Assembly: GCA_900316795.1 (NCBI GenBank)
Contig: ONEF01000001.1
Coordinates: 62,001-126,000, forward strand
DNA from: an uncultured Bacteroidales bacterium
GTDB taxonomy: Bacteria; Bacteroidota; Bacteroidia; Bacteroidales; UBA932
Length of the DNA: 64,000 nucleotides
Direction: 5' to 3'
Below the pieces are notes generated by a model. That model saw nothing but the letters and a program-made list of their open reading frames with translations. It was not told where the DNA came from and did not search any database. Below, piece by piece: positions 1,781 to 58,257 of the stretch (position 1 is the first letter of the stretch; each line of letters starts with the position of its first letter). Made by a program: the position numbers and the translations under genes.

Positions 1781-1811
1781 CATCGGTGACAAGGATATTT
1801 TTTGAAAAAAA

Positions 1812-1842
1812 TTTGTTAATTCAAAAAAACCTTATACTTTTG
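1812..1842 (+). promoter_or_regulatory. Promoter of tRNA-Pro, Bacteroidota type
   Basis: A perfect match to the Bacteroides primary sigma consensus: TTTG at 1812-1815, a 19-bp spacer, then TACTTTTG at 1835-1842. The tRNA begins 19 bp after the -7 box. This is the clearest two-box promoter in the window. Confidence 0.85.
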
Positions 1843-1860
1843 CAGTCCCAATTAGGGAAT

Positions 1861-1938
1861 CGGGGTGTGGCGCAGTTGGCTTAGCGCACCTGCTTTGGGA
1901 GCAGGGGGTCCTCCGTTCGAGTCGGAGTACCCCGACCA
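1861..1938 (+). tRNA. tRNA-Pro (anticodon TGG)
   Basis: A full cloverleaf can be drawn. Acceptor arm CGGGGTG pairs with TACCCCG (one G-T), the D arm is GCGC...GCGC, the anticodon stem CCTGC/GCAGG encloses loop TTTGGGA with TGG at positions 34-36, and the T arm is CTCCG-TTCGAGT-CGGAG. Discriminator A is at 1935 and CCA is encoded at 1936-1938. Confidence 0.96.
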
Positions 1939-1967
1939 ACAAGATCGTTTTCATACTATGTTTTTTT

Positions 1968-2005
1968 GACCAATTGCGGGTTCTCCGCAGTTGGTCTTTT
2001 TTTTT
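1968..2005 (+). terminator. Rho-independent terminator after tRNA-Pro
   Basis: A 12-bp stem (GACCAATTGCGG against CCGCAGTTGGTC, one mismatch) with a 5-base loop is followed by nine T. On the other strand a run of A precedes the hairpin (seven T at 1961-1967 on the plus strand), so it could also end the minus-strand regulator gene that stops at 2020. Confidence 0.9.
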
Positions 2006-2019
2006 ATGAAAAACGGGAT

Positions 2020-43036: not shown

Positions 43037-44251
43037 TCAATGGGAGGAAAAGAACTCATTGACAGCATTGCAGATGAACTCTATCTGTTCTTCCGCAAGG
43101 TTCGGATGCATCGGAAGGCTCAGCACATGGTCCGCAAGGTATTCCGAGTTTCTGAGGGAGTCTTCCGCATCAGGATTGAGATCTTCTCTTTTCATCGCGA
43201 TGGAGGAAAAGGCTGGCTGCTCGTTCAGCGGAAGCGGATAGTATATCATAGAAGGAACGCCCTTTTCTGCCAGGAAAGCCTTGAGGGAATCTCTGGTAGA
43301 GAGTTCTTTTCCACTTTCTTGGCTAATCTGACCGACCCCGTTTGTGAGACTGTCTTTTACAATAATTGTGTATTGATGGTATGTGTGGGTTGTGAAGTCA
43401 GATTCCAGCGGAGTATAGAAGTGTTTTTCCAGGGGATCTATGGCTTTCAGCTGCCTTGTGTAGGAAGCTGCGTTTTTCTTCCTGGCGGCGATGTATTCAT
43501 CCAGATTCCTGAGCTTTACGCCCAGGACGGCTGCCTGGAGGGTGTCAAGCCTGGAGTTGCAGCCTATGACATCGTGATGATATTTTACCTTCTGCCCGTG
43601 GTTGGCTATCATGCGGATTCTCTGTGCCAGAGTGTCGTCGTTTGTGAACAGGGCCCCTCCGTCTCCCATTCCTCCGAGGTTTTTGGTCGGGAAGAAAGAA
43701 GTGCAGCCTATATCGCCGAGACATCCTGCCTTGATTCCCTTGAAATCAGAGCCAAGGGCCTGGGCGCAGTCTTCCACTATCTTGAGATTGTATTTTTTTG
43801 CGATGTAAAGTACGGTGTCCATATCAGAGCACTGGCCGAATAGATGCACCGGCACGATTGCCCTGGTCTTTTCCGTAATCAGGTCTTCAATATGTTCGAA
43901 GGACGTGCTGTCTGTGTTGAACGTCCTGGGGTTCACGTCATACATTACCGGGACAAGATGCAGCAGGGCTATGACTTCCGCGGTTGCCACGTATGTGAAT
44001 GCCGGTACAAGCACTTGGTCTCCAGGCTCCAGCCCCAGGGCCATCAAGGCTATCTGGAGGGCGTCCGTGCCGTTGCCGCAACTGACTACATGCCTGACCT
44101 TTAGATATCTGGCAAGATTCTCTTCAAACTCTTTGACCTGCGGCCCGTTGATAAAAGAAGAAGAGTCTATCACCTTGTATATCGCCGCGTCCAGTTCCTG
44201 CTTCACCGCACTGTGAGATGAGAGCAAATCGACCATCTGTATCTTTTCCAT
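43037..44251 (-). CDS. DegT/DnrJ/EryC1-type sugar aminotransferase
   Basis: A 404-residue PLP enzyme that would transaminate a nucleotide keto-sugar. The PLP Lys is Lys190 in SFFPTKNLGGMGDGGAL. Other motifs are FINGPQVKEFEENLARYL, SCGNGTDALQIALMAL, VPAFTYVATAEVI, VHLFGQCSDM and EDCAQALGSDFKG. The KNLG/GDGGA context is closer to 3-aminotransferases (WbpE/QdtB-like) than to PglE-type 4-aminotransferases. Internal text around residues 300-330 (DSLTNGVGQISQESGKEL) is longer than usual. Its -7 box ends about 5 bp before the ATG, so the mRNA is predicted to be nearly leaderless. Confidence 0.92.
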   Translation of the reverse strand: MEKIQMVDLLSSHSAVKQELDAAIYKVIDSSSFINGPQVKEFEENLARYLKVRHVVSCGNGTDALQIALMALGLEPGDQVLVPAFTYVATAEVIALLHLVPVMYDVNPRTFNTDSTSFEHIEDLITEKTRAIVPVHLFGQCSDMDTVLYIAKKYNLKIVEDCAQALGSDFKGIKAGCLGDIGCTSFFPTKNLGGMGDGGALFTNDDTLAQRIRMIANHGQKVKYHHDVIGCNSRLDTLQAAVLGVKLRNLDEYIAARKKNAASYTRQLKAIDPLEKHFYTPLESDFTTHTYHQYTIIVKDSLTNGVGQISQESGKELSTRDSLKAFLAEKGVPSMIYYPLPLNEQPAFSSIAMKREDLNPDAEDSLRNSEYLADHVLSLPMHPNLAEEQIEFICNAVNEFFSSH

Positions 44252-44256
44252 GTATG

Positions 44257-44264
44257 CAAAGATA
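44257..44264 (-). promoter_or_regulatory. -7 box of the aminotransferase-Fe-S protein unit
   Basis: Reads TATCTTTG on the minus strand, with only 5 bp between it and the ATG at 44251. Confidence 0.6.
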
Positions 44265-44444
44265 GTTCAAATGGCCAGTAAACGTAAATAATTGTACTTT
44301 CAAAAAAATGGAAATAATTTGTAATTAAATAGGATGCGCTGTAATTATCAAATATTCAGCGATTTATAATAAGCTATATTACGATTGTCTTATATCGTTG
44401 AGAAAAAGTTTTTTCAAAATGAAAATAATCACGATAAAAATAGT

Positions 44445-44452
44445 TATATTTG
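44445..44452 (+). promoter_or_regulatory. -7 box of the TonB receptor-C25 operon
   Basis: Reads TATATTTG, 123 bp before the receptor ATG. The spacer and upstream sequence contain ATCACGAT (44428-44435), a palindrome-like 8-mer that recurs in several other promoter regions. No clear -33 TTTG. Confidence 0.55.
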
Positions 44453-44575
44453 AAAAGTTATTTGTTACCCGAAAAGTTTGAACAATGCCTAATTTTGGGT
44501 ATTGCTCCAAAGCAAAAGACTGATTTTCTTTGTGGACTTTTAAAACGGACAATGTCAAACCAAATATTAATATCT

Positions 44576-47455
44576 ATGAAGGAAACAAGATTAAAAGCAA
44601 GCAGCCTGCTGATGGCTTTGGCTCTGCTTCTGTTTTGCGGAAGCACTTGGGCCCAGCGCCAGGGGTTGGTTACCATCAAGGGTACCATCACCGAGCAGGT
44701 GAGCGACGGATCATCAGCGCCCGTTCCTTATGCAACGGTTCAGATTCCGAGTGCAGGTATGAGCGCAGTTGCCAACGAGAAAGGAGAGTATGTCATCAAA
44801 GGCATAGCTCCGGCAACCTATGAATTCATAGTTGCCTCTCTCGGTTATGAGACTTTGAACTTGAAGGTGAACGTAACCGCCGCCAAGGAGGTTTACGACT
44901 TCAAACTGAGGATCGCCGACTTCCGTCTGGATGACGTTACCGTAACTGCCGAGGCTTCAAAGACCGGAGCGGCTACAGCATCCAAGATCAACAGGACAGC
45001 TATCGAGCACATCCAGGCAAGTTCTCTTGCAGATGTTATGGTTCTGCTTCCTGGTGCCGACATTACATCCAACACTTTCAAACCAGACCTTCAGGGTGTT
45101 AAAACACTCTCCGTACGTGGAGGCAACGCAATGGGAACAGCCATCATCATGGACGGCGCTCCTGTTTCCAACGCCGCCAACATGCAGACAATGTCTGCCG
45201 CTATCGGAGGTGCCGCTCCTGGTTCAGGCGGACAGAGCCCTACAACCGGTATCGACCTCAGAACCATCACCACAGACAACGTAGAGTCTGTTGAGGTTAT
45301 CCAGGGTATCGCTTCTGTTGAGTATGGTAATGCTTCAGCCGGTACGGTTATCGTTAACGCAAAGAGCGGTGTGGAACCTCTTTCAATAAAGTTCAACACC
45401 AACCCTAACGTTTATGCTATCGGCGCAACCCACGGCTTCAGCCTTGGAGAAGGCAACGGTTTCATCAACTACGGTGTTGACTATGCACGTTCAGTCGCAG
45501 ATCCTAGAGAGGGTTACGACAAGTATCACAGGTCAACCGGAAGAATCGCCTATTCAAACACTTTCTTCGGCGGCAAGTTCTACACAAATACATCCCTGAA
45601 CTACCTTTGGACAAAGGAAAAGGCAGAGCCTAACCCTGAGGACGAGACAGATTTCGAATACCGCAACAGGCGAGACCGTGGAGTCCGCATCACCCACAAC
45701 GGAGAAATCAGACTCAATGCAGGATGGTTCAAGAACATAAAATATACGGCATCCTTCAACTACACCAACCGCTGGAGCTACTACAAGGATCAGGGAACCA
45801 ACGCTGACGTTGCTTACTCTTACAGCAAGATAGACGGCTCCGTCCTTTCAAGCCGCCCGGGCGTTGTCATCTATGACGACGGCGGAAAGCCTCTGACCTG
45901 GTTTGGTCCAAACGATGAACTCGTCAACGACAAGAGCTGGATAACCCCGGCTTCCTATACTTACGAGTACAACGTTTACGGAAAGGAACTCAACACCTTC
46001 GCAAAGATGTTGCTCAACTTCTCCGGAAACATCGGAAAGTCCAGCCACCACATTATCCTCGGTGCCGACTTCTACAACGACGGTAACAAGGGTAAAGGTA
46101 AGGTGTTCGACTATGACAATCCTCCTTATCGTTCAGTGTCATACCGCTTCGCTACTCAGAGAGAGAGGCCTTATAAGGATATTCCTTTCATGAACAAGCT
46201 GGGTGTTTACGCTCAGGAAGACTTCCGCGTTCCTGTATGGGCCGGCGGAGAGTTCAAGGTAGTAGCCGGTGTACGCTGGGACAAGGTTTGGAGCGTATCT
46301 GACGCGTTCTCTCCTAGAATCAACGCATCCCTGGATATCATTCCTGGTGTGTTCAGCATCAGAGGAGGCTACGGAGTCAGCGTAACAGCCCCTTCAATGG
46401 CTTACGTTTATCCGGACAACGCATACTTCGACATGGTCAACTTCAACAACTCGCTTCAGACTACAGTTCCTGACGCCCAGAAGTTCCAGTTGATCACAAC
46501 TCACGTATATGACATCAAAAACCACGACCTCGAGCTTGCAAAGCAGAAGAAGGCCGAGGTTGGATTTGACCTCAAGATCAAGAAGGTTAAACTCTCCGTT
46601 ACCGCTTACAAGGACAAGAGCAACAACGGATACACCTTCTCAAGAGGTCTTAACGACTATAAGTGGGTAAATTGGCTGCAATACAAGGCCGCTGCATATC
46701 CTGCTGACGGATCAAGCCTTCCTGCACTTACTCTCGACAAAGACGGCAAGGTATTCCTTGAATATACCCGTCCTGGCAACAACCGCGCATACGAGCAGAA
46801 GGGTATTGAGTTTGTGCTTGATTTCGGAAGAATCAACGCCATCCGTACTTCCTTCCTGGTCAACGGAGAGTTCTATGACTACAAGAGCTGGTCAAAGGGC
46901 TATGTGTGGTACAACAAGAGAGGAAGCGAGGAGGAAAACATAGGTATCTATGAGTCCAAGATATCTTCCGGAACCAACAGGGACCAGAACCTGATTACCA
47001 ACTTCATCATAACCCACAACATTCCTAAGATCGGTTTTGTGGTATCTCTTACCGCAAACGTAAACTGGAGGGAGAAGAGCTGGGTTACCTACGGAGCCTG
47101 TGACACCATCCCTACCAAGTATCTGAGCATAGAAGATGGACAAGTTCACGACTTTGACGCTAAGTGGGCAGATCCTTCAAATGCAGACTATGCAAAATGG
47201 CTTCCTATTCTCAGAAACGAGACCAACGGTGCTGTTGCAAAGAACAGAAGGCAGGTTGAACCTTCATACAATCCGGTTCTCTGTATCAACGTGAACGTTA
47301 CCAAGCAGTTCAAGAACTTCGACGTATCGTTCTTCGCAAACAACATGTTTAGAAGTACTCCTCTGCAGTCTCTGGTCAAGAGTCCTGGAGACAAGGTTCG
47401 AAGGAACTCTAATGTGTTCTTCTTCGGACTGCAGTTGACTGCACGTATTAAATAA
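44576..47455 (+). CDS. TonB-dependent outer-membrane receptor
   Basis: A 959-residue outer-membrane transporter. The signal peptide is KASSLLMALALLLFCGSTWAQ. A carboxypeptidase-regulatory-like beta-sandwich covers about residues 25-115 (VPYATVQIPSAGMSAVANEKGEYVIKGIAPATYEF), then a TonB-box-like LDDVTVTAEA. The plug runs about 130-290 (LPGADITSNTF, LSVRGGNAMGTAIIMDGAPVS, VESVEVIQGIASVEYGNASAG) and contains an unusual Met/Gly-rich loop. A long 22-strand-type barrel ends FFFGLQLTARIK. No SusD partner follows; instead a DUF4876-like lipoprotein starts 19 bp downstream. Substrate unknown. ATG 44576 is the only start giving a signal peptide at the N-terminus. Confidence 0.93.
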   Translation: MKETRLKASSLLMALALLLFCGSTWAQRQGLVTIKGTITEQVSDGSSAPVPYATVQIPSAGMSAVANEKGEYVIKGIAPATYEFIVASLGYETLNLKVNVTAAKEVYDFKLRIADFRLDDVTVTAEASKTGAATASKINRTAIEHIQASSLADVMVLLPGADITSNTFKPDLQGVKTLSVRGGNAMGTAIIMDGAPVSNAANMQTMSAAIGGAAPGSGGQSPTTGIDLRTITTDNVESVEVIQGIASVEYGNASAGTVIVNAKSGVEPLSIKFNTNPNVYAIGATHGFSLGEGNGFINYGVDYARSVADPREGYDKYHRSTGRIAYSNTFFGGKFYTNTSLNYLWTKEKAEPNPEDETDFEYRNRRDRGVRITHNGEIRLNAGWFKNIKYTASFNYTNRWSYYKDQGTNADVAYSYSKIDGSVLSSRPGVVIYDDGGKPLTWFGPNDELVNDKSWITPASYTYEYNVYGKELNTFAKMLLNFSGNIGKSSHHIILGADFYNDGNKGKGKVFDYDNPPYRSVSYRFATQRERPYKDIPFMNKLGVYAQEDFRVPVWAGGEFKVVAGVRWDKVWSVSDAFSPRINASLDIIPGVFSIRGGYGVSVTAPSMAYVYPDNAYFDMVNFNNSLQTTVPDAQKFQLITTHVYDIKNHDLELAKQKKAEVGFDLKIKKVKLSVTAYKDKSNNGYTFSRGLNDYKWVNWLQYKAAAYPADGSSLPALTLDKDGKVFLEYTRPGNNRAYEQKGIEFVLDFGRINAIRTSFLVNGEFYDYKSWSKGYVWYNKRGSEEENIGIYESKISSGTNRDQNLITNFIITHNIPKIGFVVSLTANVNWREKSWVTYGACDTIPTKYLSIEDGQVHDFDAKWADPSNADYAKWLPILRNETNGAVAKNRRQVEPSYNPVLCINVNVTKQFKNFDVSFFANNMFRSTPLQSLVKSPGDKVRRNSNVFFFGLQLTARIK

Positions 47456-47474
47456 CTTTTAGAAGATCGTGATT

Positions 47475-48749
47475 ATGAAAAAGATATATACGATATTATT
47501 AGCAGCCACCTTCGCTTTCCTTTTCTCCTCATGTATCGACATGATGGATGACGTCAAGGACACGAAGAAGATAGAGCCCATCAGCGTCTCCTACAAGGTT
47601 TGTGCAGCCACGGGCTTCATTCCTAAGGGTGGAACCATCACTCCAGACCCTAACTTCTCCACCGCCGGTGTTGACGTAGTTTTCACCAACGTGAAGACAG
47701 GACAGGTTTTCAGAGGAGTAACCGGTTCCAACAGTATTGCAACCGTGGACATTGAGCCAGGTGTTTACTCCATAAGCGTAACCGGACGTGCAACCCACGA
47801 TGGTTACCAGTACTTCATAAACGGAAACGTTCCGAGCATCTCCATATTTGAGGATGTTACTCCAGAGCAGGCCAACACAGACGAGAAATACCGCCTGGTG
47901 GTTCGCCCTGCAAAGGTCGGATCTTTCTGTATCAGCGAAATTTACTATTGCGGTATCGCAAGCTACTACTTCAGGGACCAGACCTACCAGTTCACCAACA
48001 ACTCAGACGAGGTCTTCTATTTGGACGGAACCTGCTTTGCTCAGCTGCATCCTAACATCGCTACCGCCAATCTTCCTACCTGGCCAGATGAGGACGGAGA
48101 CGGAAACTTCGTATACAGCGTTATGGTTTGGCAGTTCCCTGGAACCGGCCACGATTATCCTGTACTGCCTGGCGAGAGCGTGGTTGTAGCCCAGGAGCCA
48201 AGAGACCATACGACCAACAATCCAAACTCCTACGACAACTCAATGGCAGATTTCCAGACCTGGACAGGAAACGCATCCCGCTACAATCCGGATGTTCCTA
48301 ACCTGACCAGCATCTTTTATACATCTTGGAACAGCATGCAATGGCTTACCTCTGTATTCGGAGCAGCATTCTGTGTATTCAAGGCTCCTGAAGGAACTAC
48401 CGTGGACGAGGATTATTACAAGGATGCCACTCATTATCAGAGCGAGGTTGGAAAGACTTCAAAGTACGCTAAGATTCCGGCAGACTGGATTCTTGACGGC
48501 GTAGAGCTTCTGACCAACATGAACGCCATGAATATGAAGAGAATTCCAGGTTTCGTGGATGCAGGCGGTACATCAGTGGAGGCTACATATTGCGGAAAGA
48601 CAGTTTCCAGGAAGGTTGTCGAGAAGAGAGCTGACGGAACTCCTAAGTATCAGGATACAAACAACTCTACCGAAGACTTCCAGGTTAATGACAAGCCTGT
48701 CATCCGCCGTAATGGTGAAAAGGTTCCATCATGGACTTGGTACAAATAG
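47475..48749 (+). CDS. DUF4876-like surface lipoprotein
   Basis: A 424-residue lipoprotein: signal peptide KKIYTILLAATFAFLFSSC, Cys near residue 20, followed by IDMMDDVKD. A first beta-sandwich contains GVDVVFTNVKTGQVFRGVTGSNSIATVDIEPGVYSISVTG, and the second part is typical of DUF4876 (FCISEIYYCGIASYYFRDQTYQFTNNSDEVFYLDG, LPGESVVVAQEPRDHT). It ends NGEKVPSWTWYK. It probably sits on or under the receptor as a capture protein, in the place SusD holds in glycan systems. A GTG 6 bp upstream is an alternative start. ATCGTGAT lies directly before the ATG. Confidence 0.82.
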   Translation: MKKIYTILLAATFAFLFSSCIDMMDDVKDTKKIEPISVSYKVCAATGFIPKGGTITPDPNFSTAGVDVVFTNVKTGQVFRGVTGSNSIATVDIEPGVYSISVTGRATHDGYQYFINGNVPSISIFEDVTPEQANTDEKYRLVVRPAKVGSFCISEIYYCGIASYYFRDQTYQFTNNSDEVFYLDGTCFAQLHPNIATANLPTWPDEDGDGNFVYSVMVWQFPGTGHDYPVLPGESVVVAQEPRDHTTNNPNSYDNSMADFQTWTGNASRYNPDVPNLTSIFYTSWNSMQWLTSVFGAAFCVFKAPEGTTVDEDYYKDATHYQSEVGKTSKYAKIPADWILDGVELLTNMNAMNMKRIPGFVDAGGTSVEATYCGKTVSRKVVEKRADGTPKYQDTNNSTEDFQVNDKPVIRRNGEKVPSWTWYK

Positions 48750-48762
48750 TAACGCGTAAAAG

Positions 48763-50424
48763 ATGATTGTTATGAAGAACAAGATATTCAAGATAGCGGC
48801 CATACTGGTTCCGGCTTTGTTTGCCGGTTATGTGGCCATGGCTCAGACAGGTACCAAGGCAGCCATTGAAAGGGCGGCTCTGGAAAACATCTGGACTAGC
48901 AATACCGAAAATGCTGCCGGAGGTATGGTAGACGCTCCTACCCTTATGGCCAACGCATTTGCCGGATACGACTACAAGAAGGGAGACTTCAAGCCTAAAC
49001 AGGTCGGCGAAAAGATCAATTCCCTGGTATTCCATACCGACGGTGGCGGTATCTACAAGAACGTGGGCAATATGTACCTCTGGGGCGATTTCACTTATAC
49101 CAAAGACAATATTGCAGGTGCTAAGTGGAACGCCACCCTTGCAGATCCTACCCGCGACATGCCTTTCTTCGTCGCCGATGAAAATGTCAGCAAATGGAAG
49201 AACCAGACTTATGAGATGGGCTTCAAGGCAGGTTTTCCTCGCCTTGTAAACGGACATCTGATTCTCGGTGTGGCCGGATCTTACAAGGCGGCCATCGCAG
49301 CCAAGCAGTTGGATCCTCGTCCGCTGACCAGGGTTTCGGACCTGAACGTAATGCCGTCCGTCGTGTGGGAATTCAATCCTTCCAACAGTGTAGGTGCCGT
49401 GTTCCATTACACCAGCTACCGTGAGGACGGTTCTCCTGAGAACGTGAACCACCTGCACGACCAGAAAGGTTGGGAAATGGTTGCTCCTGGTTTCTTCAAC
49501 GAAGGAGTGCTCGCATCTTTCGCTGGTATCAACAGGCTCAGAAACTACAATGCAAACGCACTGGGTGGAAGTCTTCAGTACAGCTTCAAGAACGAGAAGT
49601 TCAAGGCCCTGATTTCAGGAGACTATCTTTACAGGGTAGAAGATGTGCTTTGCAACTATACAAAGCCTCAGATGTCCGGTACCGTGAAGAAGACCGTTTG
49701 GGGAATCAACTTCGCCGCACAGCTGAACGCCACGGAGAAGGACCGCGTGTTCTTCCGCTACAGGTTTGACAACAACGACTTGAGAGGTATCGAGTACTTC
49801 CAGACCTACGACAACACTTATGAGGTCCAGAGCTACATTACCGATGCAACTTTTGAGCGTTCAAAGTTCGAGAAGAAGAACCACTATTTCAATCTGGACT
49901 ACCTGATTGCAGAAGGTGACGCATATACCTGGAAGTTCGGTCTGAACGCAAGACATTCAAAGGACAAGTTCATTTACTATGTTCCTGAGACCCACAAGCA
50001 GATCAACAATTTATTCTTTGGAGCGGACGTTACCGGAAACTGGGTATTTGCCGGAAAGCATAACTTGATGCTTAACCTGAACCTTGGAATCAACAACAAC
50101 TCCAAGGGCTCGTTTGACTATGGCGGAGTAAAGGAAAACAACAAGGCCTTCACAGACTTTGCCCTGATGGACTTCATCTATCAGAGTTCAGACTACATCA
50201 AGGGAGGCTGCAACCTGACTTACGCTTTCTGTGGAATCAAGAGCATTTCCTCTTTGTTCGTTACCTTGAGCCTTGACAGCGTAAAGCCTAACGGAGACAA
50301 CACAACTTGGGGAGATGCAATTAAAAAGTTCCCGTTCCTGAGCCCTTATCATGGAGCAGACCAGGACAAGAGCATTTTCGGCAAGCGAAATTACTTCTCA
50401 GTAAAGGTGGGTATAACCTTCTAA
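48763..50424 (+). CDS. DUF6850-like outer-membrane beta-barrel protein
   Basis: A 553-residue exported protein with signal peptide KNKIFKIAAILVPALFAGYVAMAQ and a body made of alternating amphipathic strands with frequent Tyr/Phe/Trp girdles (NMYLWGDFTYTKDN, QTYEMGFKAGFPRL, KRNYFSVKVGITF as the last strand). The Phe-ended final strand suits BAM recognition. The pattern agrees with the DUF6850 family found after DUF4876 genes. It may be a second barrel working with the receptor, possibly for export or retention of products. ATG 48763 or 48772 can be the start. It lies 13 bp after the lipoprotein gene. Confidence 0.78.
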   Translation: MIVMKNKIFKIAAILVPALFAGYVAMAQTGTKAAIERAALENIWTSNTENAAGGMVDAPTLMANAFAGYDYKKGDFKPKQVGEKINSLVFHTDGGGIYKNVGNMYLWGDFTYTKDNIAGAKWNATLADPTRDMPFFVADENVSKWKNQTYEMGFKAGFPRLVNGHLILGVAGSYKAAIAAKQLDPRPLTRVSDLNVMPSVVWEFNPSNSVGAVFHYTSYREDGSPENVNHLHDQKGWEMVAPGFFNEGVLASFAGINRLRNYNANALGGSLQYSFKNEKFKALISGDYLYRVEDVLCNYTKPQMSGTVKKTVWGINFAAQLNATEKDRVFFRYRFDNNDLRGIEYFQTYDNTYEVQSYITDATFERSKFEKKNHYFNLDYLIAEGDAYTWKFGLNARHSKDKFIYYVPETHKQINNLFFGADVTGNWVFAGKHNLMLNLNLGINNNSKGSFDYGGVKENNKAFTDFALMDFIYQSSDYIKGGCNLTYAFCGIKSISSLFVTLSLDSVKPNGDNTTWGDAIKKFPFLSPYHGADQDKSIFGKRNYFSVKVGITF

Positions 50425-50439
50425 GTAAAAACGATTCAG

Positions 50440-50474
50440 ACAAGGGGGCTGACCGTAAGGCCGGCCTCTCTTGT
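50440..50474 (+). other. GNRA-capped hairpin between the barrel and protease genes
   Basis: ACAAGGGGGCTGACC can fold against GGCCGGCCTCTCTTGT around a GTAA loop, with one bulge, one mismatch and a few G-U pairs. No T run follows, so it is not a classical terminator; it could stabilise or partly stop the transcript. A 14-bp palindrome CAATTTTAAAATTG follows at 50481-50494. Confidence 0.6.
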
Positions 50475-50500
50475 TCATAACAATTTTAAAATTGAAAATA

Positions 50501-52654
50501 ATGACGAAAAGACTGATGCTGTTGGCATTGGCGCTGGTTTTGGTTACAGCGGGAGTATCTGCCCAGACAATAGAGAAGCCATCCGTAACCGGCAAGACGT
50601 CCTTTGCTGTAATCATCGACAATCACACATTGGAAAAATGCGCACCCCAAGTGGCTGAATACAAGAAGACCATCGAGGGTGAGGGGCTTCCTACTTTCGT
50701 GGTTTCCTCAAAGTGGGAATCTCCTGAACAGGTAAAGCAAGTCCTTGAGAAACTCTACAAGGAGAACAATCTTGAAGGAGTCGTTTTCATCGGCGAAATT
50801 CCTGTGGCAATGGTGATGAAGGCCCAGTTCATGACAAGTGCCTACAAGATGGATGAGAGAAAATTCCCTCTTGAGGAAGTTGCCGTTCCTACAGACCGTT
50901 TCTACGATGATTTTGACCTTAAGTTCAACAAGATTGCCGACTCCACCAAAGGCCTGCACCATTTCTATGAACTGGCTCCGGATTCCACTCCTTACATCGA
51001 GTGCGACATCTACTCTGCAAGGATTGTGGGCCAGAAGAGCAACGGCTGCAGCTGCAAGCAGATAGCCGCCTATCTGGAGAAAGCCGTAAGGGAGCACAAG
51101 TCTGGCAACAAGTTCGACCAGTTCACATCCTATACCGGCGAAGGTTCATATTCTAATTCCATCACCGCTTGGAAGGCCGAGCAGGAAATCGTGAACGAGC
51201 AGTTCCCTGGCGTATTCAAGAAAGAAGGCGAGGCACGTTACCTTCGCTACAGCATGGCTGACTACATGAAGCCTTACGTAATCAAGGAACTCCGCCGTCC
51301 GGAACTTGACTTTATGGTTTTCCACGAGCATGGAGACTGGTTCAGGATGTATCTTTCCGGAAATCCGGGAGAACAGGAGCCTGTCGGTTATCTTAAGAAC
51401 TACCTGAGGGTGATGGCCCGCAGGAACCCTGCCAGGGCAAAAGCCAGAGCGGAGGAGTTGGGTCTTGACAGCACCTGGTACGCAGACTACAACACTCCTG
51501 AGAGCATAAAGGCAGACTCTCTTCTTGATATCAACACAGGCATCGTCCTGGAAGATGTGAACAACATCGCACCTAACGCCAGGATGGTAGTCTTTGACGC
51601 TTGCTATAACGGAGACTTCCGCAATCCTGAGTTCATTGCCGGCAAGTTCATCATGTCAAAGGGCAGCTGCGTGGTAGGTTTTGCAAACAGCGTAAACGTG
51701 CTTCAGGACAAGAGCGCGTTTGACCTTATGGGACTTCTCGGAAACGGAGTGAGGGTAGGTCTTTGGGCCCAGCACATCAACATTCTGGAGAGCCACCTGT
51801 TCGGTGACCCTACATTCCATTTTGCAGCAAATCCTGGCGATGAAGACCTCAACAGCGTTCTCACAATCAAGGATAACGCTTACTGGGCCTCCCGTCTGGA
51901 CGACAAGAATCCTGAAGTCCAGAACATGGCTGAAATCAAGCTCTTTGAAGGAAACTACCCTGGCATTTCAGACATCCTCCTGAAGAAATTCAAGGAGTCT
52001 CCTTATGCAATCGTAAGGTACAATTCAATGCACCTTCTCGAGAAGATCGGTGACAAGAATTATTGGGAAGTGCTCAAACTTGCCACCACGGATCACTTTG
52101 AATTCATCCGCAGGATAGCCGTTACCCGCATGGGCCAGGTAGGAGCAGAAGAGTTCCTCCCATATATTGTAGCAGCTTACGAGAATGACCGTCATGCTAC
52201 AAGAATTGTTTTTGACGCTTCCGGAGCGCTGGTTTGCTTTGACAAGGATGCCGCTTCAGATGCAATAAACAACTACTTCCAGGACAGGCATTTCTACAAT
52301 GCAGACAAAGACAGGGCAGAACTTCTGAAACTTGTAGAAGACAACCCTTCAGCAGAATCAATCAAGAGTATTCTTGACAAGGACAAGAAAGGCTGGAGAA
52401 TCTCATACATCCAGTTCATGAGAAACCGTCCTTACCATCAGAACCTGACAGAATGCCTGAAGGTTCTGGAAGATCCTGATGACGATGTGTTCGTCAGGAC
52501 AGTTATGGCTGAGGCTCTTGCCTGGTGGGAACTTTCCTACCGCAAGCAGGAAATCATAGATTCCTGCAAGAAACTCCTTGCAGACCCATCTACCCCGGAT
52601 CAGATGAAACCGGCTCTTATAAGTGCAGTAACACGTTTAAGTTCAAAGAAATAA
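50501..52654 (+). CDS. Secreted C25 (gingipain-like) cysteine peptidase with HEAT-like repeats, copy A
   Basis: A 717-residue exported protein. Signal peptide KRLMLLALALVLVTAGVSAQ. The N-terminal alpha/beta part (FAVIIDNHTLEKCAPQVAEYKK, EGVVFIGEIPVAMVMKAQ, DRFYDDFDLKF) matches family C25. The catalytic dyad is His277 in FHEHGDW and Cys368 in FDACYNG, 91 residues apart, with a charged helical insertion between them. Then come SVNVLQDKSAF and LFGDPTFHFA. From about residue 460 helical HEAT-like repeats follow (YAIVRYNSMHLLEKIGD, EFIRRIAVTRMGQVG). No type-IX secretion C-terminal domain is seen, so a periplasmic location is likely. ATG 50501 is used. Copy B starts 10 bp after its stop. Confidence 0.85.
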   Translation: MTKRLMLLALALVLVTAGVSAQTIEKPSVTGKTSFAVIIDNHTLEKCAPQVAEYKKTIEGEGLPTFVVSSKWESPEQVKQVLEKLYKENNLEGVVFIGEIPVAMVMKAQFMTSAYKMDERKFPLEEVAVPTDRFYDDFDLKFNKIADSTKGLHHFYELAPDSTPYIECDIYSARIVGQKSNGCSCKQIAAYLEKAVREHKSGNKFDQFTSYTGEGSYSNSITAWKAEQEIVNEQFPGVFKKEGEARYLRYSMADYMKPYVIKELRRPELDFMVFHEHGDWFRMYLSGNPGEQEPVGYLKNYLRVMARRNPARAKARAEELGLDSTWYADYNTPESIKADSLLDINTGIVLEDVNNIAPNARMVVFDACYNGDFRNPEFIAGKFIMSKGSCVVGFANSVNVLQDKSAFDLMGLLGNGVRVGLWAQHINILESHLFGDPTFHFAANPGDEDLNSVLTIKDNAYWASRLDDKNPEVQNMAEIKLFEGNYPGISDILLKKFKESPYAIVRYNSMHLLEKIGDKNYWEVLKLATTDHFEFIRRIAVTRMGQVGAEEFLPYIVAAYENDRHATRIVFDASGALVCFDKDAASDAINNYFQDRHFYNADKDRAELLKLVEDNPSAESIKSILDKDKKGWRISYIQFMRNRPYHQNLTECLKVLEDPDDDVFVRTVMAEALAWWELSYRKQEIIDSCKKLLADPSTPDQMKPALISAVTRLSSKK

Positions 52655-52664
52655 GGAGGCAGTT

Positions 52665-54938
52665 ATGAAAAGAATATTTTTAGCAGTTGTTTCAATTTGC
52701 CTCACGGTTTCTTTGATGGGGCAGAACATCAAACTTGAAAAGCCGACCGCAAAGAAGACCAGTTCATTTGCAATCGTAATAGACAACGGAACCTTCAACG
52801 CAGTGTCCGCTCAGGTTTATGCTTATCGCGATGCCGTTCAGAATGACGGCCTTGCAACCTATATCCTCCGCGGCGACTGGGAGAACCCGATGCAGCTCCG
52901 CAACGAGCTCAAGAAACTCTACAAGAAGGCCAAGAACCTTGAAGGTATAGTTCTGGTCGGCGACATTCCAGTTGCGATGGTTCGCAACGCCCAGCACATG
53001 ACCACCGCCTTCAAGATGGATGAGGACAACTTTGACCGCAACGAGTCAAGCGTAGGATCCGACCGTTTCTATGACGACCTCAACCTTGATTTTGAATATC
53101 TTGGAAGAGACAGCGTGGATACGGATTTCTTCTACTATGCGCTCAAGACAGACTGCGCCCAGAAGCTGAACCCTACATACTATTCAGCCCGCATCAAGTA
53201 TCCTTCAGAACTTGGAGGAGACAAGTACCAGGCTATAGGTGCCTTCCTGGAGAAGTGCGCCAAGGCCCACCAGATTGAGGAACCTCTGGACAACATGGTA
53301 ACCTTTGCCGGCCACGGCTACAATTCAGACTGTCTGATCACCTGGCTGGACGAGACCGTAACCATTGAAGAGAACTTCCAGTTCCTGGGTAAATCTTCAA
53401 GAGACTTCAAGCAGCTCAACTTCCGCCACGAGGACTACATGAAGTACCGTCTGTTTGACGAGCTCCAGAGGCCTGAGGTAGATGCCATCTTCTTCAACGA
53501 GCACGGAAGCATCGACAAGCAGCACATCTCCGAGATTCCGAACAAGGAAACCCCTACAGACTATGCGGAGAAGTACCGCCACGGCTGGGGCTGGGATTCT
53601 GGCCCATACGACATTATGAGCAAGGAAACCGCCAAGAGGAAGAAAGCCGGAATGAGCGACGAGGAGGTTGCCGAGTACGCCAAGAGACTTCAGGACACTC
53701 TCTGCAAAGACTTCCACGTAACTCCTAAGTTCTTCGACGAGTGGTGGAGAATCCGGAACTTTACTCCGGAAGAGAGAAAGGCTGCCGCCGAGAAGTCCAA
53801 GGAAGACAGAAGGCTCATCATCATCGACCTGAAGGACCTCAAGGGCTTCAACCCTCAGCCTTACTTCGTGATGTTCAACGCCTGCTACAACGGATCGTTT
53901 CACCGCAAGGGCAACATCAGCGGCTACTACATCTTCGGAAACGGAAGAACCATAGTATGCCAGGGCAACACCGTGAACGTTCTCCAGGACAAGTGGACCT
54001 ACGAGTGCGTGGGAATCATTTCCCTGGGAGCCAGAATCGGCGAGTACAACCGCCTTGTCCCTACCCTGGAAGGTCATCTTATCGGCGACCCTACCTTCCA
54101 CTTTGCCAGCGGTGCTGACACTGAATTCAGAGGAGTTATCGCCGCTAACCGCAACAATGGCGCCTTCTGGAGAAGCCAGCTCGACAGCCCTTATCCTGCA
54201 GTCCAGAACGTGGCTCTGCGTATGCTCAGAGACCTGAACCAGATTTCTTCAACAGAGATTCTGGAGAAGATGAAAGAGTCCAGGTTCGGAACCGTCAGGA
54301 TGGAATGCCTGACCCTTCTCTCCCGTATGGACACCGACACCTTCGCAGAAGCCCTCAAGCTCGGCCTGAAAGACCGCTATGAGGTTGTAAGAAGACGTGC
54401 CGGAGACCTTTGCGGAAGGAGCGGAGACCCTAGGGTCATGGAAACCATGATGGATGTTTTCGTAAACTATCCTGAGGCAAAGAGAGTCAGCTATAACATC
54501 TCCACAAACTTCCTCAACATCAACCACGATGCCCTCAAGGCAGCGTTCGAGAAGGTTAAGCCAACCATGACCTACTTGGACAACGACGAGGTAGTCAAGG
54601 AAGTTGAAACCGCCATCGCCCGCAACGAGAAGCGTTACAACAGCACTATCAAGGAAATCTTTGACAAGTCCGCCAAGGAAAGCGACAGGATTTCCGACAT
54701 CCGCATGACACGTAACAACAATCTCCACGAGGCGATACCTCAGTTCCTGGAGATGCTCACCGACAAGGACAACTCCCTCAAAATCCGCCTGAACGTGGCT
54801 GAGGCTCTTGGATGGTACATCTACTCTTACAAGAGGCAGGATATCATCGATGGCTGCCAGAAGATCCTCGCCACAAACTCAGACCTCGAGCCTGAACTCC
54901 GTGCGGAGATTGAACAGACCATCAACCGCCTGAAGTAG
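52665..54938 (+). CDS. Secreted C25 (gingipain-like) cysteine peptidase with HEAT-like repeats, copy B
   Basis: A 757-residue paralogue of copy A. Signal peptide KRIFLAVVSICLTVSLMGQ. Family text: FAIVIDNGTFNAVSAQVYAYRD, EGIVLVGDIPVAMVRNAQHM, SDRFYDDLNLDFEYL. Catalytic His280 in FNEHGS and Cys407 in FNACYNGSF are 127 residues apart. The insertion between them is rich in Lys/Glu and Trp (YRHGWGWDSG, FDEWWRIRNFTPEERKAA). NTVNVLQDKWTYE and LIGDPTFHFASG follow, then HEAT-like repeats to the C-terminus (YEVVRRRAGDLCGRSGDPRV, RLNVAEALGWYIYSYKRQD). No T9SS sorting domain. Probably the last gene of the receptor operon. Confidence 0.85.
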   Translation: MKRIFLAVVSICLTVSLMGQNIKLEKPTAKKTSSFAIVIDNGTFNAVSAQVYAYRDAVQNDGLATYILRGDWENPMQLRNELKKLYKKAKNLEGIVLVGDIPVAMVRNAQHMTTAFKMDEDNFDRNESSVGSDRFYDDLNLDFEYLGRDSVDTDFFYYALKTDCAQKLNPTYYSARIKYPSELGGDKYQAIGAFLEKCAKAHQIEEPLDNMVTFAGHGYNSDCLITWLDETVTIEENFQFLGKSSRDFKQLNFRHEDYMKYRLFDELQRPEVDAIFFNEHGSIDKQHISEIPNKETPTDYAEKYRHGWGWDSGPYDIMSKETAKRKKAGMSDEEVAEYAKRLQDTLCKDFHVTPKFFDEWWRIRNFTPEERKAAAEKSKEDRRLIIIDLKDLKGFNPQPYFVMFNACYNGSFHRKGNISGYYIFGNGRTIVCQGNTVNVLQDKWTYECVGIISLGARIGEYNRLVPTLEGHLIGDPTFHFASGADTEFRGVIAANRNNGAFWRSQLDSPYPAVQNVALRMLRDLNQISSTEILEKMKESRFGTVRMECLTLLSRMDTDTFAEALKLGLKDRYEVVRRRAGDLCGRSGDPRVMETMMDVFVNYPEAKRVSYNISTNFLNINHDALKAAFEKVKPTMTYLDNDEVVKEVETAIARNEKRYNSTIKEIFDKSAKESDRISDIRMTRNNNLHEAIPQFLEMLTDKDNSLKIRLNVAEALGWYIYSYKRQDIIDGCQKILATNSDLEPELRAEIEQTINRLK

Positions 54939-54947
54939 CAGCGCGGC

Positions 54948-54956
54948 GGGGGGGGG
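54948..54956. repeat. Nine-G homopolymer between protease copies B and C
   Basis: A run of nine G in the gap after copy B, 40 bp before the terminator. Such runs are prone to slippage but this one lies in non-coding sequence. Confidence 0.8.
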
Positions 54957-54995
54957 TATGGTGCTCCGCAATGCGCTGAACTTCAGCAAGATGCT

Positions 54996-55029
54996 AAAAG
55001 CACTCCCTGAAAAGCGGGGAGTGCTTTTT
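54996..55029 (+). terminator. Rho-independent terminator after protease copy B
   Basis: A perfect 12-bp stem (AAAAGCACTCCC against GGGAGTGCTTTT) with a 9-base loop, ending in five T. It closes the receptor-to-copy-B operon. Confidence 0.9.
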
Positions 55030-55084
55030 GTATGTCGTTGAAAATAAAAAAGTTGTAAGAGCCCATAGCCTGATAAAAAAAACC

Positions 55085-55092
55085 TATATTTG
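55085..55092 (+). promoter_or_regulatory. -7 box of protease copy C
   Basis: Reads TATATTTG, 14 bp before the ATG at 55107. It gives copy C a transcription unit separate from the upstream operon. No good -33 box at 19 bp. Confidence 0.6.
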
Positions 55093-55106
55093 TAAAAACG
55101 TTGAAT

Positions 55107-57215
55107 ATGAAACACCCTTCTTTTTTCATGCTGACGGTTGTCCTGCTGCTGGCGGCAACACATCTTCCTGCACAGAATGTATCGATTGAAGAACCTGTCT
55201 CTGACAACGGGGTCAAGTTTGCCATAGTAATAGACAGCAAGACTTTTTCCAAGGTCAAGAACAATGTATTTGAGTATCGCGATGCCCTTTCAAAAGACGG
55301 GCTTGACGCATACATCATAAGTGGAGAATGGGAGAACCCCGACCAGGTGAGAGAGGAAATCAGAAAGGTCTATCTGGCAAACCAGAAGAACTTTGAGGGA
55401 ATCGTGCTTGTGGGCGACATTCCGGTTGTCATGATAAGGAACGCCCAGAACATGACCAGAAGGTTCAAGATGAATGAGAACCTGTTTGAAAAAGGCCGTT
55501 CTTCAGTGCCTTCAGACAGGTTTTACGACGACCTGGGCCTTGAGTTCGAGTTTATCTCAAAGTCAAAGCGCGTAAACGGAGCTGACGGCAGGGAGCTCTT
55601 CTTCTACGACCTGAAACCTGAAAGCAGGCAATATCTGGCCCCCGATTTCTACAGCGGAAGGATAATGTATCCCGCAGGAATCGGAGGAGACAAGTACAAG
55701 GCCATCGGCGATTTTCTTGCCAGGGCCGCTGCCGCTCATCTGAACCCACCTAAGATGAAGGATATGCTTCTTAGCAGAGGAGCCCTTAGCGAGGGGGAAG
55801 ATCCCCAGGCACGCTCCGGTGTGATTGAAATGCTTAAAGACCAGATACCATTCCTGGAACAACCCACAAGGCTTCTTTTGGTCGATTTTTCCGAGGATTA
55901 TAATCCGGTAACAGATAATCTGCTTCGAGCGTTGAAAAATAACCGCTTCAGCATTTTCTATTACAGAGGGCACGGGAGCTATGGAGAAATGCAACCCGGT
56001 TGTTTTGGAAAAGGAGATTGGAAGATTACCGAAGACAGAATCCGCGCTCTTCCAGTTCAGATGAATTATATAATTCTGAATTCGTGTTTTAACGGAGTCC
56101 TTCACAGGGGAAAAGATGTTGCGGGAGCGTTTCTTTTCTCCAAGGGAAATGTCCTTGCTGTTCAGGCAGTGAGCATAAACAGTTGGCAGGATGAGTGGAT
56201 GAGCCGTTATATGGGAATCATTTACGGAGGAGCCCGGGTGGGGGAATATCACAGGTTGGCACCACTGCTTGAGAGAAACATCATCGGCGACCCTTCATTC
56301 CATTTTGCCACCTGCTATGATTATGACCTCAAAGACCAGACTGTTCTCAAGGGCGGGGATGAGCAGTACTGGCAGGACTGTCTTGTAAGGGGAGTTCCGT
56401 CACAGACAGAAGGGAGCCGAAACAACTCTCTTTCCTGCGTTGCCATAAACCGTCTGCAGGCCATGGGCAAGCTCTCCTCTTCCGAAATTGTCCAAAGGAG
56501 CCTGAAGACAATTTCTCCGAGCGTCAGTCTTGAGTATATAATGCAGGTTTATGAAATGTTCGGCAAGGGATACAGTCCTGAAGTTTCAGAAGATCTGGTC
56601 AAGATGTTCAGATACGGACTGGGGAGCAATGCGGAGTTTGTTGTCCGCCAGACTGCTGTCATAGAACTGTTTTATTCCGATCCTGTACTTTGCCAGGCGT
56701 TGATAGAGTCAATGAATTCCAGCATCAGACTAAGACGGAATAGATGCAAGGGGTTCACGGAAGAAGCATTAGGCATGATGCCGCCTGAGGTTGTAGACAG
56801 TATTCTGGCAACTTCCCCGACAAGACAAAATGCAAAACTCTGCTCCGAAGTCAAGAAGGCTGTGGAAGCCGGCCAGAAACACAAACGGACAGAGCTGATG
56901 ATCCTGACAGACACCCACACGGAAACCGCCAGAAGAGTCCTTCACACCATAGCCGTAAAGAACTGGCCTTATCCGGATCAGATACCGCTTTATCTTCAAA
57001 TGATAGCCAATAAGTCCCTGAACACGGAACTCCGGCTGCATCTGGCCGACGGGCTAGGGTATTTCGATTACTCCTACAAGAAAGGGGAAGTAATTGAAGG
57101 AGTGAGGAAACTGCTTGAAGACGAGACTATTGAAGCTACCATGAGGAACTCGATGAATACGAAAAGTTCTCTCCGCGACATGCTCAAAAAGACCCTCATC
57201 CGTCTTGAGAACTAA
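55107..57215 (+). CDS. Secreted C25 (gingipain-like) cysteine peptidase with HEAT-like repeats, copy C
   Basis: A 702-residue paralogue with signal peptide KHPSFFMLTVVLLLAATHLPAQ. Family text: FAIVIDSKTFSKVKNNVFEYRD, EGIVLVGDIPVVMIRNAQNM, SDRFYDDLGLEFEF, FYSGRIMYP. Catalytic His289 in YYRGHGSYG and Cys327 in LNSCFNGVLHRG are only 38 residues apart, close to the spacing of classical gingipains, so this copy lacks the insertions of A and B. SINSWQDEW and IIGDPSFHFAT follow, then HEAT-like repeats with LHLADGLGYFDYSYKKG. A TTG 6 bp upstream is an alternative start. It has its own promoter and converges on the next gene. Confidence 0.85.
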   Translation: MKHPSFFMLTVVLLLAATHLPAQNVSIEEPVSDNGVKFAIVIDSKTFSKVKNNVFEYRDALSKDGLDAYIISGEWENPDQVREEIRKVYLANQKNFEGIVLVGDIPVVMIRNAQNMTRRFKMNENLFEKGRSSVPSDRFYDDLGLEFEFISKSKRVNGADGRELFFYDLKPESRQYLAPDFYSGRIMYPAGIGGDKYKAIGDFLARAAAAHLNPPKMKDMLLSRGALSEGEDPQARSGVIEMLKDQIPFLEQPTRLLLVDFSEDYNPVTDNLLRALKNNRFSIFYYRGHGSYGEMQPGCFGKGDWKITEDRIRALPVQMNYIILNSCFNGVLHRGKDVAGAFLFSKGNVLAVQAVSINSWQDEWMSRYMGIIYGGARVGEYHRLAPLLERNIIGDPSFHFATCYDYDLKDQTVLKGGDEQYWQDCLVRGVPSQTEGSRNNSLSCVAINRLQAMGKLSSSEIVQRSLKTISPSVSLEYIMQVYEMFGKGYSPEVSEDLVKMFRYGLGSNAEFVVRQTAVIELFYSDPVLCQALIESMNSSIRLRRNRCKGFTEEALGMMPPEVVDSILATSPTRQNAKLCSEVKKAVEAGQKHKRTELMILTDTHTETARRVLHTIAVKNWPYPDQIPLYLQMIANKSLNTELRLHLADGLGYFDYSYKKGEVIEGVRKLLEDETIEATMRNSMNTKSSLRDMLKKTLIRLEN

Positions 57216-57253
57216 AACCGGCTGTCGCTTCCATCCTCACTGAGGAAGCACTG

Positions 57254-58228
57254 TCATTTCTTTGGTGTGAAGTACCACGGCTTCTGCCAGTCGTAGGAGG
57301 CGCGCTTGAAAGGAACGGATTCATCGCTGACAATGCGGAACATGAAAGGGTCTTCAAGTACTTTCCTCAGGTCGTATTCCTTGCCGTCTATCTTGATGGT
57401 GCGGTAGATCAGTCTGATTCCGTGGCTGTAGTCCGAGTAGAAGTTTCCGTGGCGGATGAAAAGCGGCTGCTGAGGATGTCCGTCCGGATGATGCCATCCG
57501 TAAATGGCCACGTGGCGGTCAAAACCGGCCTCATTTTCAAGTCTTGTGGTCAGGACGACGTCTTTCTTCAGTCCGGAGACAAACTGGCCGAATTTAAGCC
57601 CTTTTGACCTCATCAGGGCGTTGATGGCGTTGTTGCTGTCTTCAAAGCAGAGCGGTTTCATGTTCCTGTCTCCCACCGGGCGGAAAGGGAATATCTCAAT
57701 CCTGCCTTCAGCCGCCTCGGCGATCCTGTCCACCAGGAAGGTGGTAGGGAGCGAGCAGTACAGGGAGTCAGCCACTCTCTGGGCCCCGAGAGGTCCCATC
57801 GGCATACGTACGAAATCCTGGTCGTTGCCCACCGCCAGATAGTCAGGGAGCACCCACATCTCAACTTTATACTTATGCGTTTCGTTTTTCACGGGGCCAT
57901 CCGGGAAACCTTCAAGAGTAAAACTTTGAGATTGATGGCGGATAGTTACTGTGTATGTAATTTTGCGGAACTTCTTCAGCGCAGAAGGCACGTTGCCTGA
58001 GAGTATCTGGGAAACCGTCATATCCTCCATAGCCCAGAACCCGGTGTCCTGCACCATCTGGATGTACGCGTGTCCGTCAGGGGCGTTTTCTCCGCGATCG
58101 TGATTCTGGAACCAAGGGACATCCATATATCCCGCACTCTTGTCAATCTTCGCCTTCTTCTGAGCGTAAACATTTTGCGGCATAAGAGCCAAAACGGCGG
58201 CAGCAAACAATATCAGAAACTTTTTCAT
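57254..58228 (-). CDS. Conserved secreted protein of unknown function
   Basis: A 324-residue exported protein with signal peptide KKFLILFAAAVLALMPQNVYAQ. It has two strongly motif-like regions: LPDYLAVGNDQDFVRMPMGP followed by AQRVADSLYCSLPTTFLVDRI, and HVAIYGWHHPDGHPQQPLFIRHG followed by YSDYSHGIRLIYRTIKIDGK. Many His, Tyr, Asp and one Cys suggest an enzyme. I recall similar uncharacterised proteins in diverse bacteria but know no function. The 38-bp gap to protease copy C (convergent) and the shared exported state suggest, but do not show, a link with the peptidases. ATG 58228 fits the signal peptide. Confidence 0.72.
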   Translation of the reverse strand: MKKFLILFAAAVLALMPQNVYAQKKAKIDKSAGYMDVPWFQNHDRGENAPDGHAYIQMVQDTGFWAMEDMTVSQILSGNVPSALKKFRKITYTVTIRHQSQSFTLEGFPDGPVKNETHKYKVEMWVLPDYLAVGNDQDFVRMPMGPLGAQRVADSLYCSLPTTFLVDRIAEAAEGRIEIFPFRPVGDRNMKPLCFEDSNNAINALMRSKGLKFGQFVSGLKKDVVLTTRLENEAGFDRHVAIYGWHHPDGHPQQPLFIRHGNFYSDYSHGIRLIYRTIKIDGKEYDLRKVLEDPFMFRIVSDESVPFKRASYDWQKPWYFTPKK

Positions 58229-58249
58229 ATAAGATCTTTTTAAGCTAAA

Positions 58250-58257
58250 CAAAGATA
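58250..58257 (-). promoter_or_regulatory. -7 box of the unknown secreted protein gene
   Basis: Reads TATCTTTG on the minus strand, 21 bp before the ATG at 58228. TTTG lies 16 bp further upstream at 58274-58277, closer than usual. Confidence 0.6.

Follow-up and report, generated by a model that had tools for sequence, protein, structure and literature searches.

Why should a TonB-dependent receptor be encoded in one run of genes with a battery of secreted peptidases? The question is raised by a set of six genes in a 64,000-nucleotide stretch of contig ONEF01000001.1 from an uncultured Bacteroidales bacterium (the whole stretch is called the window here). An earlier note on this DNA proposed a capture-and-cleave system, in which surface proteins bind a protein or peptide and peptidases cut it. 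Our best explanation, to which we give a little less than an even chance, develops that proposal: by analogy with the Fus/PqqL systems, the operon would encode a protease-associated system that imports an iron-bearing protein or large peptide and cuts it in the periplasm. The genes are as follows:

44576-47455, + strand: TonB-dependent receptor (T), 959 aa, with a CarboxypepD_reg-like domain and a plug (Pfam Plug, 1.6e-12)
47475-48749, + strand: DUF4876 lipoprotein (L), 424 aa (Pfam DUF4876, PF16215, 1e-45)
48763-50424, + strand: DUF6850 protein (B), 553 aa (Pfam DUF6850, PF21012, 3.8e-81)
50501-52654, + strand: C1, predicted C25-like/HEAT peptidase, 717 aa, with a signal peptide, H277-G278 and C368
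52665-54938, + strand: C2, predicted C25-like/HEAT peptidase, 757 aa, placed by HEAT_2, catalytic residues and tree
55107-57215, + strand: C3, divergent predicted C25-like peptidase, 702 aa, with the catalytic residues and a long branch from the C2 clade

All six genes lie head to tail, as the earlier note had stated for the receptor, the lipoprotein, the second barrel gene and two peptidases. The gaps of 13-19 bp that it gave hold for receptor to lipoprotein (19 bp) and lipoprotein to DUF6850 gene (13 bp) but not farther downstream, where they measure 76 bp (DUF6850 gene to C1), 10 bp (C1 to C2) and 168 bp (C2 to C3). The lipoprotein scores 156.6 bits against a Pfam cut-off of 27.9 and has an invariant Cys20 at its lipobox; the DUF6850 protein scores 274 bits against 27 and is likely an outer-membrane barrel. 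The system had been described as having no SusD, and neither SusD nor SusC models appeared among the Pfam and NCBIfam matches of the window proteins up to E = 1. An Rfam scan of 43900-57400 gave nothing above gathering scores.

Does this gene block hold together elsewhere? We examined a set of named loci, the best 80 of 497 matches to a C1-led alignment, with genes assigned by home-made profiles (threshold >60 bits). All four families are present in 72 of these Bacteroidales loci, in the order [C]-T-L-B-C-C-[C] (C, peptidase), and the other eight are cut by a contig edge, with gene sets that begin less than 260 bases into the contig piece. Adjacent operon genes share a strand in 358 of 358 pairs, with median gaps of 14 bp (T-L), 20 bp (L-B), 37 bp (B-C) and 7 bp (C-C). 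The gene block is real and conserved, and the check that the earlier note had called for, C25/HEAT genes beside DUF4876 and DUF6850 in related genomes, came out in its favor: this synteny strongly supports a link between the peptidases and the three other proteins (receptor, lipoprotein and DUF6850 protein). The carriers include Rikenellaceae, Bacteroidaceae, Prevotellaceae, Muribaculaceae, Odoribacteraceae, Paludibacteraceae and Dysgonomonadaceae, and 44 of the 80 loci come without a named family. Three peptidases are encoded in 50 loci, two in 28 and four in 2; the resulting figure of at least two in 80/80 is biased toward loci with C1. No peptidase outside the Bacteroidales was seen among the matches listed (the best 80 of 497). 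Our literature search, which left most subscription-journal papers outside its reach, found no description of the peptidase-receptor operon as a system, and it returned none of a clan-CD-like/HEAT peptidase family.

A second survey covered 100 relatives, of which 37 match the C1 query, 50 match DUF4876 and 51 match DUF6850 over the cut-off. All 37 peptidase-matching genomes also match DUF6850 (Fisher p = 4e-16) and 35 of them DUF4876 (Fisher p = 2e-12), although these are related genomes, 30 of the 37 from one genus, and so not independent. In the two that lack a DUF4876 match (G013 and G033), the contig ends inside DUF6850. In 34 of the 37 peptidase-matching genomes, a peptidase gene shares a contig with DUF4876 or DUF6850 and sits close to it; in the remaining three (G024, G030 and G050), it is on a different contig. 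Across 149 genomes of the class, a peptidase match at E ≤ 1e-20 was found only in the genome of the window and in one genome of the same order; DUF4876 gave four matches, one of them outside the order.

Could the peptidases instead mature or regulate the receptor, the lipoprotein or the DUF6850 protein in a PorU-like role, as had also been suggested? The co-occurrence with DUF6850 in 37 of 37 genomes would agree with such a role. On the other hand, 15 of the 100 genomes have DUF4876 with no peptidase match, and among 20 regions hand-chosen from the relatives (16 with a peptidase, four without), all four peptidase-free DUF4876 loci also hold a receptor and a DUF6850 protein. This counter-argument is not decisive, because a 17-sequence DUF4876 tree puts three of the lipoproteins from these four loci in a clade of their own. 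Nevertheless, maturation has become the less likely half of the original proposal, and we consider it improbable.

What kind of peptidases are they? The earlier note assigned all three to C25, the family of gingipains and PorU, with C-terminal HEAT-like repeats. The repeats were recovered in C1 and C2, where HEAT_2 exceeds the Pfam cut-off (28.0 and 34.6 bits, against 27.7), but were undetected in C3. Peptidase_C25 (PF01364) matched C3 only, below the cut-off (20.5 vs. 23 bits), and gave no match to C1 or C2; at E ≤ 0.1, it matched 4 of 25 family members in an alignment, C3 included, and a single one, from locus L047, passed the cut-off (27.2 bits). Six motifs, compared by eye, nevertheless follow the order found in PorU-type C25: GD.P (GDGS in PorU-type proteins), D-R-F-Y-D-D (D-D-Y-F), Y-S-A-R (G-I-G-R), H-G, A-C (T-C) and G-D-P. 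Pfam and NCBIfam scans gave no M16 match, only HEAT and weak C25 matches. The peptidases probably belong to clan CD, and we write "C25-like" rather than "C25" because none of the window proteins reaches the PF01364 cut-off and the comparison with PorU-type profiles failed.

The structure of C1 was predicted with high scores (predicted local distance difference test, pLDDT, 93.6; predicted template modeling score, pTM, 0.92; 612 of 717 residues at pLDDT ≥90), and the model is mixed alpha/beta to about residue 440 and helical only beyond. Of the 50 Foldseek matches listed for this model against the PDB, most are HEAT proteins, and the others include SAVED-CHAT and Raptor. Since no gingipain is among them, the C25-like assignment does not rest on Foldseek.

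The catalytic His-Gly and Cys reported earlier were found in C1, C2 and C3 alike, and across 213 aligned peptidases, His, Gly and Cys are kept in all except one, a first-place sequence in which Gly replaces Cys. The peptidases are thus predicted to be active. They also differ near the active site. The residue two positions ahead of the catalytic Cys is Asp in 100% of C1 and of Cup (the peptidase encoded upstream of the receptor) and in 89% of C3, whereas in C2 it is Asn in 56%; the residue after the motif is Asp in 100% of C1 and Ser in 100% of C2. In clostripain and the metacaspases, Asp two before Cys shapes a basic S1 pocket. Therefore, C1 and Cup may cut after Lys or Arg and C2 elsewhere.

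Furthermore, the peptidases fall into old clades tied to their place in the operon. The two trees, of 213 and 70 sequences, were restricted by length, which excluded the shorter peptidases. In the larger tree, with nine place labels (upstream of the receptor, first, second, third and minor ones) and six peptidases from three contig-cut loci unlabeled, the place label needs 14 changes, compared with 108 in shuffles. In the smaller tree, under a richer model, C1 and Cup are each recovered as a fully supported clade, and the four place labels need 4 changes, where the minimum possible is 3. C1 and C2 are thus ancient paralogues that have been retained next to each other. The C3 of the window sits on a long branch from C2, apart from most other third-place genes, and looks like a local offshoot of C2; apparent relatives of it occur outside the operon in G019, G029 and G037.

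Where would these proteins act? Start codons and lipoboxes were assigned by a heuristic and a strict pattern rather than by a signal-peptide predictor. With the strict pattern, 68 of 74 DUF4876 proteins have a lipobox, and the six residues after its Cys are 31% D/E and 7% K/R. An acidic flank after the Cys is a feature of Bacteroidota surface lipoproteins, and we infer that the DUF4876 lipoprotein is at the cell surface. Lipoboxes are rare in the peptidases (C1 4/77, C2 0/77, C3 0/30 and Cup 3/21; 7/205 with known place), and those of Cup have basic flanks. Sec-like signals were identified in C1, C2 and C3 by reading and by the heuristic. As had been noted, none of the three has a sorting domain of the type IX secretion system (T9SS): no T9SS tail model appeared among their NCBIfam matches up to E = 1. 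A search for SprA gave no match in two genomes that have the operon, that of the window (92.75% complete) and G047 (one contig, 99% complete), while it did find the protein in four of four other genomes. Because of the Sec-like signals, the missing tail and the failure to find SprA in the genome of the window, the peptidases are probably periplasmic.

What links this operon to iron? Searched against solved structures, the DUF4876 profile gave one strong match, 4Q1Z (E = 2.8e-69), which is BT_1938 of Bacteroides thetaiotaomicron; for the model of the window protein, too, 4Q1Z was the sole strong match, with 35% identity in the structure match. The match tells nothing about the ligand. The DUF4876 protein of B. 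xylanisolvens XB1A is identical to 4Q1Z over 399 residues, and its gene adjoins a DUF6850 gene and three peptidase genes. In iron deficiency, the BT1933-39 locus, given as a transposase, hypotheticals, a HEAT repeat protein, DUF4876 and a receptor, is up 3.5-7.4-fold (PMC10434189; this and the other cited papers are drawn on for the parts accessible to us). By analogy with XB1A, the hypotheticals would be the DUF6850 protein and the peptidases. Two further DUF4876-receptor loci rise in iron deficiency, PG1019-22 of Porphyromonas gingivalis by 20.8-214.5-fold and BT3625-33 by 38.1-128.1-fold, and the legend of Fig. 1C sets BT_1938-9 alongside PG1019-21 and Prevotella intermedia genes (PMC10434189). 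Similarly, the P. gingivalis DUF4876 genes change in the same direction as HmuY (PMC10101095, PMC10470040, PMC12119571). The accessible part of a paper on HmuS (PMC12583661) makes no mention of BT_1938/9.

This induction bears on three other explanations. If the operon supplied carbon and nitrogen by taking up proteins or peptides, then capture, import and cleavage would be alike and iron incidental. Several peptidases per locus and a recurrent flanking gene, of the S9 prolyl-oligopeptidase type in the one member scanned, fit peptide breakdown; the response of BT1933-39 and of the two other DUF4876 receptor loci to iron deficiency (PMC10434189) speaks against it, and we consider it unlikely. 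Alternatively, the peptidases might cut the scaffold of a peptidic metallophore or siderophore to free its iron. BT3625-33 holds PepSY and ABC genes (PMC10434189), the peptidase-free loci L054 and L055 do so too by reading only, and the best NCBIfam matches of the window receptor are of the FepA/siderophore type. These matches, however, are to a generic plug and far under the cut-offs, and peptidases of ~700 aa with HEAT scaffolds look too large for a small peptide, which leaves this explanation somewhat less likely still. Finally, a periplasmic location of the peptidases would suit a defense in which imported protein antibiotics (bacteriocins) are destroyed, yet there is no obvious reason why a defense gene should sit in one operon with an importer of its own, and the operon of a relative is iron induced (PMC10434189). 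We regard this last proposal as very improbable.

How, then, would an import system for an iron-bearing protein work? The DUF4876 lipoprotein would capture the ligand at the surface and pass it to the TonB receptor, with help from the DUF6850 protein at the outer membrane. The receptor would carry the ligand into the periplasm, where the place-specific set of peptidases (C1 and C2, plus Cup or C3 depending on the lineage) would cut it and free the iron; each is pictured as a HEAT scaffold that bears a clan-CD-like catalytic domain. The split between surface and periplasm, the import, the iron-protein identity of the ligand and the cleavage are putative; of the original proposal, the linkage stands on conserved synteny, and capture and cleavage, though hypothetical, remains the best reading. 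The names HGW-Bacteroidetes and Proteiniphilum occur among the records of the named loci, and we take them to suggest groundwater and digesters. A host-only ligand such as transferrin is therefore unlikely to be general, and small iron proteins from microbes or plants would fit better.

Several points weigh against this explanation. Both the substrate and its proteolysis are hypothetical, and no inner-membrane transporter, TonB or reductase was seen in the window operon. The hhalign comparison with PorU-type C25 was not significant (probability 1.7 and 0.6). A single peptidase was seen in 4 of the 16 peptidase-bearing loci fetched (L042, L046, L048 and L051), and G083, which has the operon, does have SprA. 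The induction of BT1933-39, given as a range for the locus only, is modest compared with that of other iron loci in the accessible part of the source (PMC10434189), and the iron link may be a general property of DUF4876 receptors, including those without peptidases. It may be that the DUF4876 module serves several iron sources and that the peptidases mark the one that needs cutting. Lastly, no Fur-like or iron box was found upstream, either in 12 aligned regions (the window and near relatives) or in 42 non-redundant ones. Palindromic motif models did score above block shuffles (for example, 57 vs. 22-25) and were rejected: we claim no iron box because the palindromic sites are scattered A/T runs of no fixed position.

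Are the six genes transcribed together? The following signals bear on this:

44445-44452, + strand: TATATTTG, a Bacteroidota-type -7 promoter motif, read by eye ahead of the receptor
55000-55030 (hairpin 55000-55024), + strand: intrinsic terminator between C2 and C3, with an 8-bp GC-rich stem and a T run
55085-55092, + strand: a second TATATTTG promoter motif, read by eye ahead of C3

We read TATATTTG as the Bacteroidota -7 element. TA(T/G)ATTTG stands at the matching place in 9 of the 12 aligned upstream regions, and TATnTTTG is the sole clear motif among the 42 non-redundant ones. The terminator, missed by an automatic terminator scan, agrees with the earlier statement that the first one comes after C2. 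With the motif ahead of both the receptor and C3, the core operon probably runs from the receptor to C2, and C3 is probably a transcript of its own.

The operon also appears to have moved between genomes. Its DNA is 99.9% identical over 12 kb in B. xylanisolvens, B. bouchesdurhonensis and Phocaeicola faecicola (loci L100, L101 and L102; about 4697-16852 in L102), and in L101 it adjoins Toprim/DUF3991, transposase-domain and restriction-modification genes. Together, the identity and the mobile-element neighbors point to recent horizontal transfer among gut Bacteroidaceae. In L101, a block with an Eco57I-type methylase gene is inverted relative to L102 (18338-19668), as in phase-variable specificity switching, and one frame (1351-3315) fuses the N-terminus of a TonB receptor (CarboxypepD_reg and plug) to DUF3991/Toprim_2, likely a scar of recombination between receptor and mobilization genes. 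The XB1A receptor frame is split in two (L102, 3784-7096), and the other five operon frames are open.

The neighborhood has further features. The long flanking gene noted above recurs in 16 of the 80 named loci, mostly on the opposite strand, and long frames upstream in L042, L048 and L051 may resemble it by reading only. A conserved Cys/His-rich protein of ~147 aa ends ~100 bp before the operon in L109, L114, L116, L122, L123, L125, L132, L134 and L135. Such small proteins upstream of Cup (9 of 63 loci) were considered as a clue to metal and not used as evidence; the one in L114 matches NCBIfam HYC_CC_PP at 3.1e-5, below the cut-off, and the window has none. Just downstream of C3, on the - strand, 57254-58252 encodes a secreted-looking protein with no Pfam match, which by reading has look-alikes in 9 of the 80 loci, all near relatives. 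To the left of the operon, ~19000-44251 holds an apparent surface-polysaccharide cluster; scans of three of its members gave a polysaccharide pyruvyl transferase, a DegT aminotransferase and an FrhB-like protein.

If the import explanation is right, protease-coupled nutrient import would extend from Proteobacteria to common gut bacteria, with B. thetaiotaomicron as a tractable model and with relevance to how gut bacteria compete for iron. The explanation also gives a testable role to DUF4876, for which a crystal structure exists, to DUF6850 and to the clan-CD-like/HEAT peptidases. The bolder claim, possible but doubtful, is that the operon represents a second, independently evolved class of protein import and digestion, in which an iron protein would enter intact across the outer membrane and be taken apart by place-specific gingipain-like/HEAT peptidases of different cutting preferences acting jointly in the periplasm, and a common, mobile form of iron piracy in gut commensals.

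How does the operon compare with known systems? It resembles the SusC/SusD systems in pairing a receptor with a lipoprotein in Bacteroidota and differs from them in that the window proteins match neither model. Its peptidases resemble C25 (gingipains and PorU) in the order of their His-Gly, Cys and G-D-P motifs, compared by eye, and in giving sub-threshold Pfam matches; their A-C-x-N-G resembles that of gingipains, where PorU-type proteins have A-T-C-E-F. They differ in their HEAT tail, in the lack of a significant PorU-type profile match and, in the window three, in having no T9SS tail. BT1933-39 belongs to the same operon family, BT_1938 being its DUF4876 protein, but has been described as an iron-induced TonB locus whose other genes are HEAT repeat or hypothetical (PMC10434189). 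PG1019-22 and BT3625-33 likewise combine DUF4876 with a TonB receptor and are iron induced, whereas their table rows name no HEAT or peptidase gene (PMC10434189). The closest functional precedents are Fus of Pectobacterium, in which FusA imports ferredoxin and the M16 protease FusC cuts it in the periplasm, and Ydd/PqqL of Escherichia coli; in both, a receptor gene lies beside that of a periplasmic protease and expression depends on iron (PMC6793856). Here, too, the TonB receptor shares one cluster with protease genes, predicted as such from motifs; the periplasmic location is probable, and iron induction comes only from the BT_1938 operon. The differences are that clan-CD-like cysteine peptidases, as a rule in two or three paralogous copies, stand here in place of one M16 metalloprotease, that the present operon adds a lipoprotein and a second, likely outer-membrane protein, and that it is found in Bacteroidales, whereas the Fus and PqqL systems are described from Proteobacteria (PMC6793856).

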